Both the position numbers and the translations under genes were made by a program. This document shows positions 4,727 through 22,826 of a stretch of 22,826 nucleotides of DNA, in pieces. The stretch is from the IMG/VR virus record IMGVR_UViG_3300025669_000203, positions 1 through 22,826 of that record, one strand, 5' to 3'. The first letter of the stretch is position 1; every line of letters starts with the position of its first letter. This DNA is from a virus. The notes under the pieces are model-generated. The model did no database searches. It saw nothing but the letters and a program-made list of their open reading frames with translations, and was not told the DNA's origin.

Positions 4727-5191
4727 ATGTTTAAAAAACTAGTGATACCCATGCTACTCATCGCATATGGGTTAATACTTACATTTACACAAGGTTGTGC
4801 GAGTAAAGAGGCTATCGTTAAGACTGGTTCTTTTAAGACTACGTTTATTGCGGAAAAAGGTAAGACACTTACCGGTTCTGTTGACTTGGATTTAATTAAA
4901 GAGGCCGGTAGTGGTAGTACCGACATTGGTATTCAAGGTGCTGAAACTGCTAACGTTGAAGGAACGTACTATGAGAAGAGAGTTGATCGAAAAGTATCCA
5001 CAAGTTGTACTTGGCAGTCATGGTACTTTGTAGATGCCAACGGTAAACAACAGCACCGGACGTACTTGTCATTCTATGACGGTAGTTCTGCTATTGGTGA
5101 TCTATTTGATACGGAAAATGAGGTTCCTATTATTCAGGACATGATGGACGAAGAAACTTATTACGGGCCTACAGTTGAATCTTCACCGTAG
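4727..5191 (+). CDS. Phage-encoded lipoprotein
   Basis: A 154-residue protein from ATG 4727, chosen over the upstream GTG 4673 because of its RBS (AAAGGGATTTGAG) and because the protein then begins with a proper signal sequence: KK, a hydrophobic core (VIPMLLIAYGLILTF), and a lipobox-like TQGC|AS with the lipidated Cys at residue 24. The -3 position is Thr rather than the usual Leu, so the lipobox is imperfect. The mature part is beta-rich, with a segment around DLDLIKEAGSGSTDIGIQG, and ends acidic. As the last gene of the late operon after the lysis genes, it could be an outer-membrane spanin subunit or a receptor-blocking (superinfection-exclusion) lipoprotein. The signal peptide is visible; the role is inference. 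Confidence 0.75.
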   Translation: MFKKLVIPMLLIAYGLILTFTQGCASKEAIVKTGSFKTTFIAEKGKTLTGSVDLDLIKEAGSGSTDIGIQGAETANVEGTYYEKRVDRKVSTSCTWQSWYFVDANGKQQHRTYLSFYDGSSAIGDLFDTENEVPIIQDMMDEETYYGPTVESSP

Positions 5192-5200
5192 ACTTTCATG

Positions 5201-5231
5201 CTGTGGGGTTGCGTAAAATACAACCCCACAG
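5201..5231. terminator. Perfect 11-bp hairpin between convergent operons (candidate bidirectional terminator)
   Basis: CTGTGGGGTTG (5201-5211) and CAACCCCACAG (5221-5231) form a perfect GC-rich 11-bp stem with a 9-nt loop, 9 nt after the stop of the last plus-strand gene and facing the end of the minus-strand block. Neither strand has the U-run of a classical intrinsic terminator. The function is inferred from position and stem stability. Confidence 0.55.
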
Positions 5232-5237
5232 ATGATT

Positions 5238-5327
5238 CTAAGTGTGCATATTGGCAAGAACAAACAATGTTAAAATTCCAAATAATATAAACACCGTGTT
5301 CATCCATCTCTCAGTAAACTTTTTCAT
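5238..5327 (-). CDS. Possible 29-aa single-pass membrane micro-protein
   Basis: The ORF encodes MKKFTERWMNTVFILFGILT and on to residue 29: a basic N-terminus followed by one clear hydrophobic helix (VFILFGILTLFVLA), a plausible tiny membrane protein. Its ATG overlaps the stop of a 22-codon ORF (5324-5392) by 4 nt (ATGA), as is usual in this block. The nearest Shine-Dalgarno-like AAAGGTG sits rather far upstream. It would be the last gene of the minus-strand block before the convergent hairpin. It is too short for a family match; coding is suggested by the charge/hydrophobicity pattern and the overlap only. Confidence 0.35.
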   Translation of the reverse strand: MKKFTERWMNTVFILFGILTLFVLANMHT

Positions 5328-7887: not shown

Positions 7888-7904
7888 CTTAACCTCATGT
7901 TTCC

Positions 7905-7946
7905 ATTATACCACATTTAGACAGAAACTATCCATTTTATTTTTCA
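7905..7946 (-). promoter_or_regulatory. Promoter element 1: extended -10 promoter, near-identical to 21009-21050
   Basis: Read on the minus strand it has a perfect extended -10 (TGG-TATAAT, TATAAT at 7910-7905) and a -35-like TGGATA 18 nt upstream. Forty-two bases match 21009-21050 with three mismatches, which makes a functional element very likely. A second promoter-like pair lies just upstream (TTGACA at 7964-7959, TAAAAT at 7939-7934, 19-nt spacer). It would drive the zinc-ribbon gene at 7887 and the genes after it. Confidence 0.65.
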
Positions 7947-8170
7947 TATCGGTACTTTTGTCAAAAATCAATTCTGAGCCACTTAAATTTTGCATTATTG
8001 GTGATATCAAGCTTAGCGACACTTGCTGTATAATAATAGCTCTATAGTGCCTTCTCGTTCGTCTGACGGCAATTTACAGGTGGTGCCGTGGTGTCTTTTA
8101 CGATAATATCACAAATTACCCCTAAAATGACAAGTCTTCCGTTAATTCATGTTGTCTCACCTTAACATCC
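7947..8170. other. Non-coding stretch upstream of promoter element 1
   Basis: I see no credible gene here. On the minus strand there is a weak promoter-like pair (TTGTCA at 8133-8128 and ATATTA at 8109-8104) and a 6-bp inverted repeat (ACGGCA 8066-8071, TGCCGT 8084-8089) that could be a small stem-loop. The remainder is AT-rich and without repeats. Confidence 0.4.
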
Positions 8171-10095: not shown

Positions 10096-10924
10096 TTTGT
10101 TCCCTTTCTTCTTCTATTCTTTTTTCTTCTAGTAGTTTTGCAAATACTGGTTCTGCACTGTCAAAATTACCGGGTGTTACGCTTGAAACAGTGTTGTTGG
10201 TTTCTGGCTGATTTAAATAACCATTAAACTTATTACCATAAAGTGTTAATGGTTTTAAATGTTTTTCATAGTCTGTTCCTCTCCACTCTTTAATCTTTAT
10301 GTCATGTACTTTTTTAAAATCATCTAATGTGTGACCCTCACCAAACCTAGCCCTTATTTTTTCTTTATGTTTGTCAGTGTCTTTAAAATTTTTACCAAGT
10401 TTTTTGTTTAAATCATCTATTACTTCTTTGTATGGAATTTTAGGTACAACATCTTTTACATCTTCAGGTACATTTACATCTTCATTTGCACTTCCATTTA
10501 CAATTACAGAGTTTGCTGTTGTCTTTGCCGTCTTGTTTGCCGTAGCAAATCCACCCTTAGAACCAGAAATTGAACGCTTTAGTGACAATATATTATCGTC
10601 TATCATCCTTTTTTGTGATAGTATGTTGTTTTTTATATCCAACTGTAAAACATCTTCTTCAATAAGGTCTGTTAGCGCATCGTAAATAACTTCCAAAGAA
10701 AAGTGCATATGTTTTTGGAGTTTTATAGCAAAATTTTCAATTTGGTCATTAGTTTGGTGGTTCTTTTGCCGTAGCAAGATAGTCCCATATTCTTTTGACT
10801 TATGCATAGCACACATAACAAAAAGATAAACGCCAACAGATTGTGCAGAACATTCTTTAAGTTTTTCATCTGTCAATATATCCTTAACATATAATGGGAT
10901 ATATGGTTGGTCTCTAAGAGCCAT
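10079..10924 (-). CDS. Replisome-organiser-like protein with conserved phage C-terminal domain (Phg_2220_C)
   Basis: A 281-residue protein. The N-terminal ~110 residues (PYIPLYVKDILTDEKLKECS ... GVYLFVMCAMHKS) look like the winged-helix (DUF1376-like) domain of phage replication initiators. A Lys/Ser/Asn-rich linker follows. Residues ~165-235 (IPYKEVIDDLNKKLGKNFKD, then KIRARFGEGHTLDDFKKVHD and LTLYGNKFNGYLNQ) match the conserved phage C-terminal domain TIGR02220/PF09524. Such proteins bind the origin and recruit helicase and loader. The start (GGGGGTATTTTA-ATG) shares a base with the GIY-YIG gene stop, and the helicase-loader-like gene follows. A TTGATA-N18-TATAAT promoter-like match lies just upstream. 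A repeat-type origin is not visible in the gene. Confidence 0.82.
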   Translation of the reverse strand: MALRDQPYIPLYVKDILTDEKLKECSAQSVGVYLFVMCAMHKSKEYGTILLRQKNHQTNDQIENFAIKLQKHMHFSLEVIYDALTDLIEEDVLQLDIKNNILSQKRMIDDNILSLKRSISGSKGGFATANKTAKTTANSVIVNGSANEDVNVPEDVKDVVPKIPYKEVIDDLNKKLGKNFKDTDKHKEKIRARFGEGHTLDDFKKVHDIKIKEWRGTDYEKHLKPLTLYGNKFNGYLNQPETNNTVSSVTPGNFDSAEPVFAKLLEEKRIEEEREQNEEQN

Positions 10925-11505
10925 TAAAATACCCCCTTGTGTAACTTATTATACTTTGGTTTAAGCTTTTTTATCAACTTTAACTCATAATCAAAAAAAC
11001 CCTTTTCCATTGGTAGATAATACAATTTACACATTTTGCCATTTGAACGTATTTTTGATGGTATTTTATGGCACTTATATCTTTGGGCTAAATTAGTTGT
11101 ACATCCAACATAAACAATATCGCAATCATCCATTTCATACTCGGTTAAATTGCCATATGTTTTTTTATGTTCAACTAGAACATAAACAGCTGATTCTTTT
11201 TTTAATGCACCCCAATCAAAATCACACCAATATATTTGTACCATCCTTTTTAAGAAAACAAGCCTTAATCGTTCTGACCTTAAATATTCATTATGTTCTA
11301 AATAATTTACAAATGCCAAATAAAAAACATCTTTCAATCTTTTCATTGATAGCATGTTAGATTGTAATAAAATTAACATAAGTTCTAATAATGTTTCAAA
11401 TTCTGCATTACCCCCGTATTCTTTAATAAGTTTTTTCCTATCATAATCCCCAAATTTACCAATAAAGTCTTCAAAAGCCGTAAAATCATAAGATAATTCT
11501 TCCAT
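10924..11505 (-). CDS. GIY-YIG domain nuclease
   Basis: A 193-residue protein from ATG 11505, with the RBS GGAGGTAGAT; a longer frame from 11529 lacks one. Residues ~105-186 form a GIY-YIG nuclease: AVYVLVE (GIY strand, ~106-112), DIVYVGCTTNLAQRYKCHK (YIG strand, catalytic Arg142), then YLPMEKGFFDYELKLIKKLK with metal-binding Glu174 and a terminal Asn-containing turn. The N-terminal ~100 residues are helical and unrecognised; they may supply DNA specificity. GIY-YIG proteins include homing endonucleases, UvrC-like repair enzymes and restriction nucleases; in a phage early operon next to a leader with a terminator-like hairpin, a free-standing homing endonuclease is the leading option. Confidence 0.8.
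   Translation of the reverse strand: MEELSYDFTAFEDFIGKFGDYDRKKLIKEYGGNAEFETLLELMLILLQSNMLSMKRLKDVFYLAFVNYLEHNEYLRSERLRLVFLKRMVQIYWCDFDWGALKKESAVYVLVEHKKTYGNLTEYEMDDCDIVYVGCTTNLAQRYKCHKIPSKIRSNGKMCKLYYLPMEKGFFDYELKLIKKLKPKYNKLHKGVF
10948..10977 (-). promoter_or_regulatory. Promoter-like match inside the 3' end of the GIY-YIG gene
   Basis: On the minus strand TTGATA (10977-10972), an 18-nt spacer and TATAAT (10953-10948) form a near-consensus sigma70-type promoter about 24 nt upstream of the replisome-organiser-like start codon. It lies over Lys/Tyr/Asn codons, so a chance match from AT-rich coding sequence is possible. Confidence 0.35.
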
Positions 11506-11534
11506 ATCTACCTCCAAAAAAATTGCCATAAAAA

Positions 11535-11584
11535 AAACCCAAGATGGCGCAGTTTAGGGATTGTGTCCCTAACACCTTGGGTTT
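11535..11584 (-). terminator. Bulged intrinsic terminator/attenuator upstream of the GIY-YIG gene
   Basis: On the minus strand AAACCCAAG (11584-11576) pairs with CTTGGGTTT (11543-11535) and encloses a second perfect 7-bp stem TTAGGGA/TCCCTAA (11572-11566 with 11560-11554, loop CACAA). It ends in a run of eight T (11538-11531 region), so it has the form of an intrinsic terminator with an internal asymmetric loop. It lies about 30 nt upstream of the GIY-YIG start, so it would reduce expression of that gene unless read-through occurs. Confidence 0.65.
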
Positions 11585-11589
11585 CTAAT

Positions 11590-11702
11590 ATGGCATTTTG
11601 ATACTTCATATTACATACCCCTGCGCAAGGAATGGTGTACATCTATAGTACACAAAATCAACGTACACCCATTCCATTGTTATGTCAAGTCAAACATCCT
11701 AA
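11590..11702 (-). promoter_or_regulatory. Structured leader with alternative hairpins and a promoter-like sequence
   Basis: Reading the minus strand, GGAATGG-GTGTAC (11677-11664) can pair with GTACA-CCATTCC (11640-11628 region), or GTGTAC (11654-11649 region) can pair with GTACAC (11641-11636); the pairings are mutually exclusive. A 6-bp AATATG/CATATT hairpin follows. GCGCAG (11626-11621) is complementary to CTGCGC (11552-11547) in the bulge of the downstream terminator. A TTGACA-N17-TACGTT pair (11688-11660) overlaps the first stem. Structure is seen in the sequence; regulation is inference. Confidence 0.4.
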
Positions 11703-12256: not shown

Positions 12257-12547
12257 CTAATACGTTATCATTTTTATACCGTGTGCCTTTGAGTGACAAA
12301 CTTGACAAAGCAAAACGCAATTTTCTACAGTATTCCGTCCACCTTGCGATCTAAATACTTTGTGATGCACTTGTAGGTTCTGGTTTGAACCACACTCAGC
12401 ACAAATACCGTCGTTAAGATTATAAATATACTCACAGAAATAACGATATATAATATTATAATGCTTAGGACACAGATGATATTTAAAATACCCATTATAC
12501 TTCTTTTTAGCTTTGGCATTACAGCCTCCAAATTCACAAATTTTCAC
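12257..12547 (-). CDS. HNH endonuclease
   Basis: A 96-residue nuclease read from GTG 12547, which overlaps the upstream stop by GTGA and is preceded by a GGGGTGATG-type RBS; the long N-terminal extension of the open frame from 12646 overlaps the membrane gene and is not needed. Residues 4-29 hold a small zinc site (C4, C9, C26, H29), and residues 49-89 a HNH core: CAEC, LQVHHKVFRSQGG (H61, H62), N76, CQVC and H89. The extra cysteines form the usual structural zinc of this class. Likely a homing-type or DNA-nicking phage endonuclease; target unknown. Confidence 0.82.
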   Translation of the reverse strand: MKICEFGGCNAKAKKKYNGYFKYHLCPKHYNIIYRYFCEYIYNLNDGICAECGSNQNLQVHHKVFRSQGGRNTVENCVLLCQVCHSKAHGIKMITY

Positions 12548-12738
12548 TTGCTTAACATCACCCCTATAACGCCTATTAACGTGAAAAACAGTAATGCGAT
12601 AGCAAACCCTCCCCAGAAAGGGAACAGTACCCACCACCACGACCACGCTATCACGCTTGTAAGTTTTAAAATTATAAAAACTATACCAATTACACCGAAA
12701 AGACCTATACTGTCGGCTGAACCTTTTTGATTTAACAT
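12544..12738 (-). CDS. Transmembrane Fragile-X-F-type phage protein
   Basis: A 64-residue membrane protein: a short polar N-terminus (MLNQKGSADSIG), a first helix (LFGVIGIVFIILKLTSVI), the short AWSWWWVLFPFWGG motif, and a second helix (FAIALLFFTLIGVIGVML). The 'K-L-T-x-V-I-x-W-S-W-W-W-V...P-x-W-G' signature is that of phage proteins annotated as transmembrane Fragile-X-F protein. Despite the name, the role is not known; small size and two helices suggest a membrane-active accessory protein. RBS: AAAAGGAGAATAAG. It overlaps the HNH start by GTGA. Confidence 0.75.
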   Translation of the reverse strand: MLNQKGSADSIGLFGVIGIVFIILKLTSVIAWSWWWVLFPFWGGFAIALLFFTLIGVIGVMLSK

Positions 12739-14502: not shown

Positions 14503-15855
14503 TTATAAGCCATCTTTCATTGTTGAAAGCATACTCTTTAATACTTCTGGTTCACTTTTACTGTCGTTAAGAAAGTCAATAGAACCCAGCCACTTGTCTT
14601 CGTCAAAACCGTGCATTGATTCTACCTGATACAATTTATAGAAATACTTCTTCAGCAGTTCACACTCTGGCTTATCAAGTCCAATCTCACCAACTATGGC
14701 CCAGAACTGTCTGTTGAATTTCGCCTGTTCATCCGTGAATGTCTCTTTCTCCGGTACTGCATTAAAGGGGTCTTCAATAAAAGCCATGGCCTCATCAAAT
14801 GTAAGTTCAGACATTTTTTCAACACCAAGTCCAGACATGTAGGTTTTGAGGTAATCTTTATGTTCTTCATCTCTTGCCTGAATCGCATTGATAGACTTAA
14901 CCTGTAATGATTTGATTCCTGCGGTCATTACATCTTTACCATTTAGCTTGATCTTCTGTGTCAGCTTGCGCGGTACTTGCGCGGTACTTGCGCGGTGCTT
15001 GCTTGGTTCTTGCTTGACGACTGGTTCCTCTGTGGATTCTTCACTCGCACTGAAGGTTGTTGCTTTGTCATCTTCAGCTTCAACACTCATATCAATAACT
15101 GGTATTACTGGCTGTGAATCATCCATCTCTGGGTTGATGTCTTCCGGTTCTGGAAGTATAATGTTTTTTGAATGGTGTAACCCTAGGTTTCCATCCCTAA
15201 GTTTCTGATACTGGTCTTCGTTAATATTGGGATATAACCTAACAATATAGTGTGTTTGGGGTGCCGAATTGGCACTACCACCACCAGTCTTCTGTGGTGT
15301 CCTCTCTAGAAGTAGTGGTATTAATGCAAACCTGTTCTCACCAGTTATGCTTTGGATGTAATCACCAACATGTTTTATACCAGAATTTATTGAAACGGTT
15401 GAGTGAAAAGAGCCTGTGTCTAAAGAATAGCACCACCCCATGGATACCTTGGGCAACATGAAGAATAAAGACCCTCTTAAGCTACACTGACCAGAATCAA
15501 GTTTCTCACAAGGGCAGTTAATCTGTTCAATCAATCCATTATCCTGTTTCCTCCACGCTATCTCTCCGTCACCCTTACACTTGACACCAACCGAACCACC
15601 ATACCACTTGTATGACTGGGGGAAGACAGATTCTATCCGATTCACGGGGAACATTATTTGTAGCTGTTTTGGTTTATCCCCGAACACCTCTTGAACATCT
15701 TCAGGACAGACGAAATAGTCAGTCTCTTTTGGGTACTCTTTACCATTTTGATTTTTTACCTTAATACCCAACCTTATCTTACCCCGCCTCGGCATATATC
15801 TTATGTCGGATAATCCCCGTATTTTGGTGATTGATGGAAAACCTTGTCTATTCAT
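14503..15855 (-). CDS. phiC31-gp3-like recombination directionality factor (RDF) family protein with long C-terminal extension
   Basis: A 450-residue protein. Residues ~1-235 follow the pattern of the gp3-like family: PRRGKIRLGIKVKN, YPKETDYFVCPEDV, LQIMFPVNRIESVFPQSYKW, then a zinc-type Cys set (C93, C114, C116, C124) and MGWCYSLDTGSFHSTVSINS. In phiC31 the gp3 protein switches a serine integrase from integration to excision; members elsewhere may have other recombination roles. The length is nearly twice the phiC31 protein (~244 residues): residues ~240-300 are a low-complexity linker and ~300-450 a helical domain of unknown role. No integrase lies in the window. The start overlaps the upstream stop by 4 nt; RBS GGGAGATGAA. 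Confidence 0.7.
   Translation of the reverse strand: MNRQGFPSITKIRGLSDIRYMPRRGKIRLGIKVKNQNGKEYPKETDYFVCPEDVQEVFGDKPKQLQIMFPVNRIESVFPQSYKWYGGSVGVKCKGDGEIAWRKQDNGLIEQINCPCEKLDSGQCSLRGSLFFMLPKVSMGWCYSLDTGSFHSTVSINSGIKHVGDYIQSITGENRFALIPLLLERTPQKTGGGSANSAPQTHYIVRLYPNINEDQYQKLRDGNLGLHHSKNIILPEPEDINPEMDDSQPVIPVIDMSVEAEDDKATTFSASEESTEEPVVKQEPSKHRASTAQVPRKLTQKIKLNGKDVMTAGIKSLQVKSINAIQARDEEHKDYLKTYMSGLGVEKMSELTFDEAMAFIEDPFNAVPEKETFTDEQAKFNRQFWAIVGEIGLDKPECELLKKYFYKLYQVESMHGFDEDKWLGSIDFLNDSKSEPEVLKSMLSTMKDGL
14965..15002. repeat. 11-bp tandem repeat (three copies plus a partial copy)
   Basis: Unit CTTGCGCGGTA at 14965-14975 and 14976-14986, CTTGCGCGGTG at 14987-14997, then a partial CTTGC. It lies inside the low-complexity linker of the RDF-like protein. 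Because 11 is not a multiple of 3, each copy is read in a different frame, yet three copies add exactly 11 codons, so the reading frame is kept. Confidence 0.8.
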
Positions 15856-16886
15856 TTCATCTCCCTTAATTGTTGTTTTTTAAGTTTTTGGTGATATCTA
15901 ACATGGTCTCCGGTACATGAAAATAGCATAAGATTGGAAGTTTCATTATTGGTCTTATTTTCGTCAATATGATGAACAACTTCTTTTTTAGTTAATTCAC
16001 GCCCTATATGGTTAGCCATTATAACCCTGTGAAGAAACGTATCGTTGTCCGCACCCCTTTCTTTAAACACAACATATCCCATTGCCCTTACACTTAAACC
16101 CTTATATTTATGTCGTAGTTTATAGTAGTTTAAGCGACTTTCAGCACGTGTTCTAGTTTTTATTCCTGAATTTACAAAATAATTTGTAATAGAACGTTGT
16201 GAACACTTAAATAATTTTGCTATTTCTATTTTACTCCATCCATTTTCGTATAAACTTTTCCACTGTTCTTTAACTGATTGTTTAATACACTTACGACTCT
16301 TAATCTCTACACCAACAGATTTAAGGTGTTGCAAAACCGTAGTGTTTGAACACCCATATTTTGTACCTATTTCCATTGATGTTATTCCTTTTTCGTACAA
16401 CTTTTTCCATTTTTCTTTAATTGATGGTTTAACATACCTTTTGTTTTTGACATCAACCCCAACAGATTTAAGGTGTTGATTTACAGCATATTTTGAACAA
16501 CCGTATTGTACACCAATTTCTCTTGTTGTTAACCCTCCTTCATATAAACTTTTCCATTTTTCTTTAGTAGATGGTTTGATGTATATTCTGTTTTTAACCT
16601 CTGCGCCAACAGAATTAAGATAGCTACAAACAGTAGTAGGTGAACAACCATATTTTAAACCTATTTCTGTTGTGGTTAACCCTTTTTCATATAAACTTTT
16701 CCATGGTTCCTTAATCGATGGTTCAATATATGTTCTGTTTTTTAACTCTATGCCAATGGATTTGAGATACCTAGAAACAGAAGCATATGAGCATCCAGAA
16801 ATTTCACCAATCTCCCTTAACGTCAAACCTGATTCGTACATTTTCTTCCAATTTTTCTTGATTTTCAACGAGACTACTTTAACCAT
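15852..16886 (-). CDS. Protein with five tandem helix-turn-helix repeats and a C-terminal HNH domain
   Basis: A 344-residue protein from ATG 16886 (RBS GGGGGTTGGT; the frame extends to 16910 without an RBS). Residues ~8-252 are five copies of a ~49-residue unit, starting near 8, 58, 107, 156 and 205, with the consensus 'KEKWKSLYEKGLTTREIG-KYGCS--TV--HLKSVGVEVKNR-YIKPS'. Each unit is a complete helix-turn-helix; the most variable residues lie in the predicted recognition helix (YASVSR, PTTVCS, KYAVNQ, NTTVLQ, QRSITN). Residues ~284-335 are an HNH module (HRVIMANHIGRELTKK, VVHHIDENKTNN, GDHVRYH). A homing-type endonuclease with an extended modular DNA-binding array is likely. The gene overlaps the RDF-like gene by 4 nt. 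Confidence 0.85.
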   Translation of the reverse strand: MVKVVSLKIKKNWKKMYESGLTLREIGEISGCSYASVSRYLKSIGIELKNRTYIEPSIKEPWKSLYEKGLTTTEIGLKYGCSPTTVCSYLNSVGAEVKNRIYIKPSTKEKWKSLYEGGLTTREIGVQYGCSKYAVNQHLKSVGVDVKNKRYVKPSIKEKWKKLYEKGITSMEIGTKYGCSNTTVLQHLKSVGVEIKSRKCIKQSVKEQWKSLYENGWSKIEIAKLFKCSQRSITNYFVNSGIKTRTRAESRLNYYKLRHKYKGLSVRAMGYVVFKERGADNDTFLHRVIMANHIGRELTKKEVVHHIDENKTNNETSNLMLFSCTGDHVRYHQKLKKQQLREMK

Positions 16887-16998
16887 ACCAACCCCCAATA
16901 AAAAAGCCAAAAAAATCCACAGGAGGCTCGGATACCAGCTTTAACACTGATAACTCCCATAGATTTAATTGACTATTTTTATTACTAATTATTTTCAC
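16879..16998 (-). CDS. Possible 39-aa leader peptide overlapping the HTH-HNH gene start
   Basis: A GTG start at 16998 follows a consensus GGAGGACGTA RBS and opens a 39-residue frame (MKIISNKNSQLNLWELSVLK, then EPPVDFFGFFIGGWYG) that ends at 16879, overlapping the start of the HTH-HNH gene by 8 nt. The overlap and the strong RBS suggest translational coupling. GCTCGGA upstream of the RBS is complementary to TCCGAGC inside the ORF, so the RBS may be occluded by a stem. It is too short for family assignment; coding status is uncertain. Confidence 0.4.
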   Translation of the reverse strand: MKIISNKNSQLNLWELSVLKLVSEPPVDFFGFFIGGWYG

Positions 16999-17026
16999 TA
17001 CGTCCTCCGAGCATAAACTTGAGGGA

Positions 17027-17055
17027 AGCTTACACCGTTATTATTGTTTTGTCAA
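17027..17055 (-). promoter_or_regulatory. Promoter-like sequence upstream of the leader ORF and HTH-HNH gene
   Basis: On the minus strand TTGACA (17055-17050) is a perfect -35, followed by a 17-nt spacer and TAAGCT (17032-17027) as a weak -10. It matches the sequence at 11688-11660 at 21 of 29 positions, including AACAAT in the spacer and GGTGTA before the -10. The match and the intergenic location support a real promoter for the HTH-HNH gene. Confidence 0.5.
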
Positions 17056-20965: not shown

Positions 20966-21008
20966 AATTTTCTCCTTAAGATTTATAATACAGTTTGTTT
21001 GTATCTCT

Positions 21009-21050
21009 ATTATACCACATATTGACAAAAACTATCCATTTTATTTTTCT
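21009..21050 (-). promoter_or_regulatory. Promoter element 2: extended -10 promoter, near-identical to 7905-7946
   Basis: On the minus strand TGG-TATAAT (TATAAT at 21014-21009) is a perfect extended -10; a -35-like TGGATA lies 18 nt upstream. It matches 7905-7946 at 39 of 42 bases. The predicted start of transcription is ~21002, about 37 nt before the ATG at 20965, whose RBS it includes. The element overlaps the last two bases of the upstream gene, so it is probably an internal promoter of the block. Confidence 0.65.
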
Positions 21051-22185: not shown

Positions 22186-22826
22186 TTATTTTATTACTAT
22201 ACCAGTTATTTCTTTAAAGATTTTAGCATCAAAGTTTGGCAATTTCTTAAAGCTGTTTTTTTCTTTTTCTGTAAGTTTCATATTTTTGCAGGCATCAATA
22301 AAGCTATATTCTTTGAGGTATCCTTCTTGACAATAAAATTCTGGGTGCTCGGTTTTTTCTTCATCGGTCATATCTGATTCATTAACCCACACTGTGAGAA
22401 TAAACTTTTTTTCTAAAACATTAAAAGCATCTGAGTTATACCAATTACTATAACTCCAATCTGAGTCTTTGTTGAAAAGTCTTAATTTTGGCTTGTTTGT
22501 GTTAAAAATTCCGCTGTTCCTGTCTCCGCTGTTCATGTCTCCGCTGTTCCTGTCTCCGCTGTTCATGTATCCGCTGTTCATGTATCCGCTGTTCATGTCT
22601 CCGCTGTTCCTGTATCCGCTGTTCCTGTCTCCGCTGTTCCTGTCTCCGCTGTTCATGTCTCCGCTGTTCCTGTCTCCGCTGTTCATGTCTCCGCTGTTCC
22701 TGTCTCCGCTGTTCCTGTCTCCACTGTTCCTGTGGCCAGTATTATTGGTGCCAGAATTACAAACAACTAAAACCTCTTGCCACGATAATTCTCTTAGTAT
22801 TTTTATTTTATCCGTACAGATTTTGC
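22186..22826 (-). CDS. NSGxx pentapeptide-repeat phage protein, 5' end outside window
   Basis: The frame is open to the right edge of the window, so the N-terminus is missing; an ATG at 22686 is only an internal Met inside the repeats. Visible parts: a leading stretch with LRELSWQEVLVVCNSG, then about fifteen 5-residue NSG-[DYI]-[RMF] repeats, then a C-terminal domain (KLRLFNKDSDWSYSNWYNSD; ESDMTDEEKTEHPEF; LPNFDAKIFKEITGI). The same combination, an N-x-G-x-x (Pentapeptide_2-like) array followed by a SDW...NSDA...MTDEEK...HPE domain, is common in phages and prophages. The pentapeptide array should form a beta-helix; the role is not established. Confidence 0.8.
   Translation of the reverse strand, partial: KICTDKIKILRELSWQEVLVVCNSGTNNTGHRNSGDRNSGDRNSGDMNSGDRNSGDMNSGDRNSGDRNSGYRNSGDMNSGYMNSGYMNSGDRNSGDMNSGDRNSGIFNTNKPKLRLFNKDSDWSYSNWYNSDAFNVLEKKFILTVWVNESDMTDEEKTEHPEFYCQEGYLKEYSFIDACKNMKLTEKEKNSFKKLPNFDAKIFKEITGIVIK
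22511..22735. repeat. 15-bp tandem repeat array (15 units) encoding the NSGxx repeats
   Basis: Fifteen consecutive 15-bp units (ccgctgttcctgtct type) fill the whole interval without a gap. They are almost identical. Differences in coding strand are nearly all G/T: GAC or TAC at one codon and AGG or ATG at the next, giving D/Y and R/M. The terminal unit at 22721-22735 is the most degenerate (AGT, CAC). Confidence 0.9.

Follow-up and report, generated by a model that had tools for sequence, protein, structure and literature searches.

Two candidate RNA leaders of similar shape precede unrelated endonuclease genes in one virus record

The closest precedent for the leaders described here is the control of homing-endonuclease genes by terminators and hairpins in T4-like phages (PMC2988022). 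For mobE and segF, intrinsic terminators are described that lie within the 5' end of the gene, the one of mobE giving about 30% termination, and RBS hairpins are described for I-TevI, I-TevII, I-TevIII, segB and mobE of Aeh1, while in Aeromonas phage 25 a hairpin is located directly 5' of the seg43 ribosome site (PMC2988022). The locus analyzed here resembles these systems in that candidate terminators or stable RNA structures occur at the 5' end of endonuclease genes within long transcripts, in the proposed combination of local promoters with read-through, in start codons that overlap or abut the upstream ORF and, as for seg43, in a stable hairpin whose foot abuts the endonuclease ribosome site (PMC2988022). 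Whereas mobE and segF carry their terminators within the gene's own 5' end, and other hairpins described there hide a ribosome site, the hairpin is positioned here before the gene; it further differs by a 7-nt bulge with complementarity to a strand farther upstream, and by the occurrence of one device before two nuclease families (PMC2988022). The seg43 hairpin is simple, a 9-bp stem closed by a loop of 6 nt, with no bulge and no T tail, unlike the two leaders, and a search of its sequence with our model R3 gave no real match (best score 8.9 bits, elsewhere in the 2401 bases). A literature search on how the leaders of phage endonuclease genes are regulated or structured showed no title or abstract describing such a device, which is not proof of absence.

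The window analyzed is the entire IMG/VR virus record of 22,826 bases, which is linear, perhaps a fragment, and has a GC content of 38%. Larger ORFs up to about 5.2 kb are oriented rightward (tail, lysis), and those from 22.8 to 5.6 kb leftward. At the convergence of the two gene blocks a very stable structure is present on both strands (5157-5256), possibly a two-way terminator. No tRNA was detected in the window by ARAGORN, and at the end of the record (22465-22778, minus strand) 15-base repeats form a coding run of NSGDM/R-like pentapeptides. The first leader, hereafter the GIY leader, belongs to the leftward block and extends from the end of a 77-aa ORF (11703) to a GIY-YIG-like endonuclease ORF. 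The candidate GIY-YIG domain of this ORF scored 19.6 bits against PF01541, below the cut-off of 22.6, and 20.1 bits, also below, in another run, while the gene product matches phrog_16880 (endonuclease) with an E-value of 3.3e-7. Judged from these sequence matches, the downstream gene probably encodes a DNA-cutting endonuclease. The features of the GIY leader are:

10924-11505, minus strand: GIY-YIG-like endonuclease gene, likely start ATG 11505 after GGAGG 11515-11511
11508-11609, minus strand: 33-codon ORF, spanning the hairpin and ending 2 nt ahead of the start codon of the GIY gene; its status as a gene is doubtful
11514-11601, minus strand: P2, terminator-like extended hairpin with lower, middle and upper stems
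11530-11537, minus strand: T8 tail of the terminator-like hairpin
11547-11552, minus strand: pkB (CTGCGC), inside the 7-nt 3' bulge and complementary to pkA
11621-11626, minus strand: pkA (GCGCAG), overlapping AGGGG, the ribosome-site-like sequence of the 33-codon ORF
11626-11679, minus strand: P1 hairpin; either copy of GTGTAC can serve as the partner of its 3' arm
11660-11688, minus strand: promoter-like block, TTGACA 11688-11683, 17 nt, TACGTT 11665-11660, with a weak -10

The original prediction had described a two-storey terminator with an eight-T tail, which was recovered as a 14-bp middle stem (11586-11573/11546-11533), a 7-bp upper stem (11572-11566/11560-11554) followed by the 7-nt 3' bulge, and T8 at 11537-11530. 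A third storey (TGCCATA/TATGGCA and TCAAAA/TTTTGG), missed in that prediction, reaches into the ribosome site. The 6-nt complementarity claimed between the leader and the terminator is exact (GCGCAG 11626-11621 and CTGCGC 11552-11547), and the 6-bp hairpin reported in addition is present (AATATG 11612-11607 and CATATT 11592-11587, within the inverted repeat I2); it is AT-only save one pair and competes with larger stems. The fold of 11531-11702 had a z-score of -4.26, and none of 200 shuffles was equally stable. Among 4546 overlapping 100-nt windows on both strands, 11606-11507 had the lowest energy, while with 180-nt windows only the convergent region near 5.2 kb ranked ahead of the region of the GIY leader. 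With -23.2 kcal/mol the T-tailed hairpin is the best of the record, and in 15 shuffles none of 2268 candidates reached -20 kcal/mol or lower. By chance, a 6-nt complement to the GIY bulge was present in 295 of 20000 segments of 110 nt drawn at random from the minus strand; when the upstream stretch itself was shuffled, 4 of 2000 versions contained one.

Two mutually exclusive pairings of GTGTAC and GTACAC had also been predicted, in a wording that corresponds to the plus-strand mirror of the transcribed minus strand. On the minus strand, two GTGTAC copies (11668-11663 and 11653-11648) were found together with one GTACAC (11640-11635), and the alternatives are present. The pairing with the distal copy sits in an 18-pair imperfect hairpin of -19.1 kcal/mol, while the proximal alternative reaches -12.3 kcal/mol. 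Because the long form is favored by 6.8 kcal/mol and the second leader, described below, has no GTGTAC/GTACAC pair, this alternative is unlikely to be a switch; it is real, and secondary. Transcription starting about 7 nt past the promoter-like block, near 11653, would exclude the 5' arm of P1, and in RNA without this arm only the short GTGTAC/GTACAC hairpin forms. Such a start would give the alternative pairings a possible meaning, but one without counterpart in the second copy.

The second leader (17055-16886, minus strand), hereafter the HTH-HNH leader, shows the architecture of the GIY leader in other letters and precedes an unrelated endonuclease gene. Its features are:

15852-16886, minus strand: HTH-HNH endonuclease gene, PF13392 (HNH_3) 38.8 bits (cut-off 24.8) together with HTH families
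16879-16998, minus strand: 39-codon ORF with a GTG start, spanning the second hairpin and overlapping the start of the HTH-HNH gene
16896-16984, minus strand: P2 of the second copy, with T7 at 16915-16909
16926-16932, minus strand: pkB of this leader (TCCGAGC), which makes up the 7-nt 3' bulge
17006-17012, minus strand: pkA of the second copy (GCTCGGA), overlapping GGAGG of the 39-codon ORF
17027-17055, minus strand: promoter-like block, TTGACA, 17 nt, TAAGCT, with a weak -10

Within the HTH-HNH gene, four 147-nt repeats (16200-16787, minus strand) encode repeated helix-turn-helix units ahead of the HNH domain. Both P2 hairpins have lower stems, a UU/UU loop, a 7-bp upper stem, a loop of 5 or 6 nt and a 7-nt 3' bulge, and in both a ribosome site lies at the foot of the hairpin. 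The middle stem comprises 14 bp in the GIY and 13 bp in the HTH-HNH leader, the tail T8 and T7, the bulge ACTGCGC and TCCGAGC, and the spacing from pkA to pkB 68 and 73 nt, respectively. The two T-tailed hairpins (GIY -23.2 and HNH -19.5 kcal/mol) are the two lowest of 85 candidates on the minus strand. A complement such as the pkA of the HTH-HNH leader was found by chance in 100 of 20000 random minus-strand segments of equal length and in 19 of 2000 shuffles of the upstream stretch.

Since MAFFT gave no structural alignment of the two hairpins, single-copy models and a model-fitted alignment (A6) were used. A model built from the HNH hairpin only retrieved the GIY hairpin with an E-value of 6.6e-7 in the window, where the next unrelated match had an E-value of 1.2, and with 34.5 bits when 650 kb were searched, the highest unrelated score there being 14.1 bits. 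The reverse search was weaker (26.1 bits, E-value 7.7e-5 in the window; E-value 0.0022 in 650 kb, with an unrelated match at 24.3 bits). With hand-set stems, 14 of the 26 nested P2 pairs differ on both sides between the two copies, 6 on one side and 6 are the same, and in the model-fitted alignment both sides differ for 14 of 35 pairs, while 95.7% of the cells pair, compared with at most 55.1% in slid versions and 0 of 500 shuffles that did as well. Changes on both sides are, however, largely expected for any two hairpins fitted to one structure, and because fitting alone yields much apparent covariation, the case rests on the identical geometry, the position and the pkA:pkB pairing. In the latter (GCGCAG:CTGCGC and GCTCGG:CCGAGC), 2 of the 6 pairs are changed on both sides and the other 4 are identical, so that a crossing complementarity with compensatory change, of the kind expected for a pseudoknot, is seen in the two copies. 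The structure shared by the GIY and HTH-HNH leaders is well supported, by two copies in one record, and as the complementarity of bulge and upstream strand recurs with compensatory changes, it probably represents a pseudoknot or an antiterminator.

A descriptor of this architecture that makes no demand on pkA was written after the pair had been seen; with both strands of the window searched, it matched exactly the two leaders, each of which carries pkA. It had no match in 40 one-strand shuffles, in 920,918 strand-bases of 46 viral loci or in 24 genome loci. Folding of the 100 nt before 40 hand-listed minus-strand starts gave the lowest energies for three endonuclease genes (GIY-YIG -39.4, HTH-HNH -33.4 and HNH -29.9), followed by -23.2 for the next gene, with a mean of -15.4. 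By z-score these three ranked 1, 2 and 5 with 100 nt. Over five window definitions they were the best three by energy in four and by z-score in three, and with 60-nt windows the GIY gene fell outside the first eight. The region before the HNH gene near 12547 was considered as a third copy and rejected, as its fold is stable but neither descriptor nor model matched. A very stable structure at 12567-12666 (minus strand), inside the membrane-protein ORF that precedes this HNH gene, has an architecture unlike that of the two leaders.

Relatives were sought in several collections. Scans of viral contigs guided by the GIY-YIG, replication, Cas4-like, Gp3-like and 77-aa proteins yielded no usable kin and one distant locus (L002), and the GIY-YIG protein had no match in genome contigs. 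In phage records, tblastn retrieved nothing with the GIY-YIG, Cas4-like, 77-aa and tail proteins, and distant matches with those for replication, Gp3-like, HTH-HNH and lysis. Among 369 genomes of one bacterial class the GIY-YIG protein was matched in none and the HTH-HNH protein, distantly, in one. Searching with blastn, no match was obtained for the GIY region, and for both leaders, at E-values up to 10, short matches only (best E-value 0.2 among the matches listed). Model R3 retrieved nothing in 274 genomes of the same bacterial class, searched with stricter filters, or in 6 others; its best unrelated match in 650 kb of sequence scored 23.9 bits. A DNA pattern for the terminator had one match, in another context, and a pattern for P1 matched 34 loci, 26 of which are one recurrent 50-nt stretch that by eye resembles protein code, and none of which corresponds to the GIY leader. 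No Rfam 15 family matched the window at the gathering score, and the two leaders gave weak matches at chance level only, so that these families were dismissed as candidates.

As judged from its letters, the upstream block in both leaders is promoter-like with a weak -10. The pattern TTGACA-N17-TA[AC]G[CT]T has exactly two matches in the window, each just past the preceding gene, and a match of 13 of 14 letters like that between the two blocks arose in 3 of 100 shuffles. When the letters common to both were searched in genome contigs, 24 loci were found, which resemble ordinary promoters without the element; 21 of them continue as TANNNT and 8 as TATAAT, counted by the author. In a rival account, the hairpins are plain intrinsic terminators that end the preceding gene block, and the complementarity and the common layout have arisen by chance or remain from a duplication. 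In its favor, strong T-tailed hairpins are located directly past gene ends, and in the complete GIY read-through RNA P2 dominates almost the whole ensemble, with a pkA:pkB probability of 0.0 in a calculation limited to nested folds. However, in both copies the promoter-like block is placed after the gene end and ahead of the hairpin, and a plain terminator there would therefore stop this promoter's own transcript; moreover, just a short ribosome-site stretch separates the hairpin from the next start, and the compensatory changes in pkA:pkB are not accounted for. We regard plain terminators as rather unlikely. The original prediction had wavered between a regulated leader and a plain terminator. 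Of its two readings the regulated leader is preferred, because the complementarity of bulge and upstream strand recurs before a second endonuclease gene, which a bare end-of-gene terminator would not need; the GTGTAC alternative is improbable as the switch.

Further promoter-like sequences were noticed elsewhere in the window. A sigma-70-like match of 11 of 12 positions (10977-10948, minus strand), among the two best in the scanned stretch, lies in the end of the GIY gene directly before the replication gene, which it could free from the terminator. A 44-nt repeat with 91% identity (21006-21049 and 7902-7945, minus strand) ends in TGTGGTATAAT and probably represents two copies of an early promoter. 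Its core pattern has these two matches in the window and no others, and a phage-promoter pattern matched 10 viral loci, none of which continued as a promoter. A gap of more than 230 nt without clear gene (7935-8170, minus strand) contains a promoter-like TTGTCA, 17, GATATT near 8133-8105 and might hold a small RNA.

Next, the two short ORFs that run across the hairpins were considered. If they were genuine protein genes of 33 and 39 codons ahead of the endonuclease genes, the structures could be mere by-products of coding. Each of the two comes with a ribosome-site-like sequence and remains open throughout the hairpin, and codon usage mildly favors the 39-codon frame (0.084 versus -0.037 and -0.090). 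The 33-codon frame, in contrast, is not favored (0.082 versus 0.07 and 0.07), Pfam gave no match for either ORF and, read by hand, the shared hairpin would be translated in different frames by the two. Coding as the origin of the structures is thus highly improbable, and what the two leaders have in common is RNA rather than peptides. A frameshift joining the short ORF to the nuclease gene was rejected as well, since by hand one leader would need a shift of -1 and the other of +1.

Transcription attenuators consist of a leader RNA in which a terminator competes with an upstream pairing, and of a short leader ORF. Both leaders share with them the terminator-like hairpin, an upstream pairing that may compete with it and the short ORF. 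Unlike in attenuators, the competing strand pairs here with a bulge and not with a stem arm, and the leaders are candidates only, without identified ligand, protein or stalling signal. To follow the competition during synthesis, folds were compared for RNAs of increasing length. With the GIY RNA ending at 11537 the pkA:pkB fold was better by 4.4 kcal/mol and at 11531 by 1.2 kcal/mol, whereas at 11523, with the lower stem out, the terminator was better by 8.5 kcal/mol. For the HTH-HNH leader pkA:pkB leads by 3.7 kcal/mol at 16922 and the terminator by 4.1 kcal/mol at 16916, that is, before the T tract. RNA polymerase covers roughly the last ten nucleotides of its transcript, and because of this pkA:pkB could form first in both copies, more firmly in the GIY leader.

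The order of the strands also recalls the HDV-like nested pseudoknot, in which a 5' strand is followed by an outer stem, an inner hairpin, the partner of the 5' strand and the 3' arm of the outer stem. The same order is found in both leaders, but the inner stem has 7 bp, there is no linker, no further hairpin past the partner strand and no Rfam match. An HDV-like ribozyme was rejected, as the strand order alone agrees.

A further possibility is that no termination is involved and that the long helix adjoining the ribosome site, perhaps together with the pseudoknot, limits translation or is cut by a double-strand-specific RNase. P2 reaches into GGAGG, whose five bases have predicted unpaired probabilities of 0.53, 0.37, 0.80, 0.81 and 0.10 in the fold of 11702-11450, and a hairpin directly before the ribosome site is described for seg43 of Aeromonas phage 25 (PMC2988022). 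However, only the first bases of GGAGG fall within P2, and the ribosome site is mostly not tightly sequestered; in addition, T7 or T8 follows right after a GC-rich stem in both hairpins, which control of translation does not need. Translational control or RNA processing without termination appears quite unlikely to us.

The reading we prefer is that of two paralogous cis-regulatory RNA leaders, each before an endonuclease gene, which would limit the nuclease by switching between terminator and pseudoknot; we consider it about evenly balanced between right and wrong. Polymerase coming from the local promoter or from upstream genes would make P2 and often stop in the T tract. Otherwise, the mRNA would carry the ribosome site of the nuclease at the foot of a long helix, and little nuclease would be made. 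Emerging pkB may bind pkA while the 3' arm of the middle stem has yet to appear, and this pairing would delay or block the terminator and let the polymerase through. In doing so, pkA:pkB would either exclude the middle stem of P2, as a switch, or coexist with it, as a pseudoknot. A ribosome at the start of the short ORF would cover pkA and tip the balance to termination. The net effect would be a nuclease supply that is low and conditional.

Leaders of the same shape before two nuclease genes suggest one shared built-in control on both. More tentatively, and with considerable doubt on our side, they may represent a new class of phage cis-regulatory RNA, in which an upstream strand doubling as ribosome site is combined with a terminator hairpin whose 7-nt 3' bulge pairs to this strand. 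Such a class would have been duplicated or would travel with endonuclease genes of different families, and would couple translation of a short ORF to termination before the nuclease gene. Phages must keep their own nucleases in check, and if the proposal is true, a single RNA device serves two unrelated nuclease genes in one phage. The pair of leaders would then offer a direct test bed for the tuning of intrinsic termination by a bulge-directed pseudoknot, as well as a model with which similar leaders could be searched.
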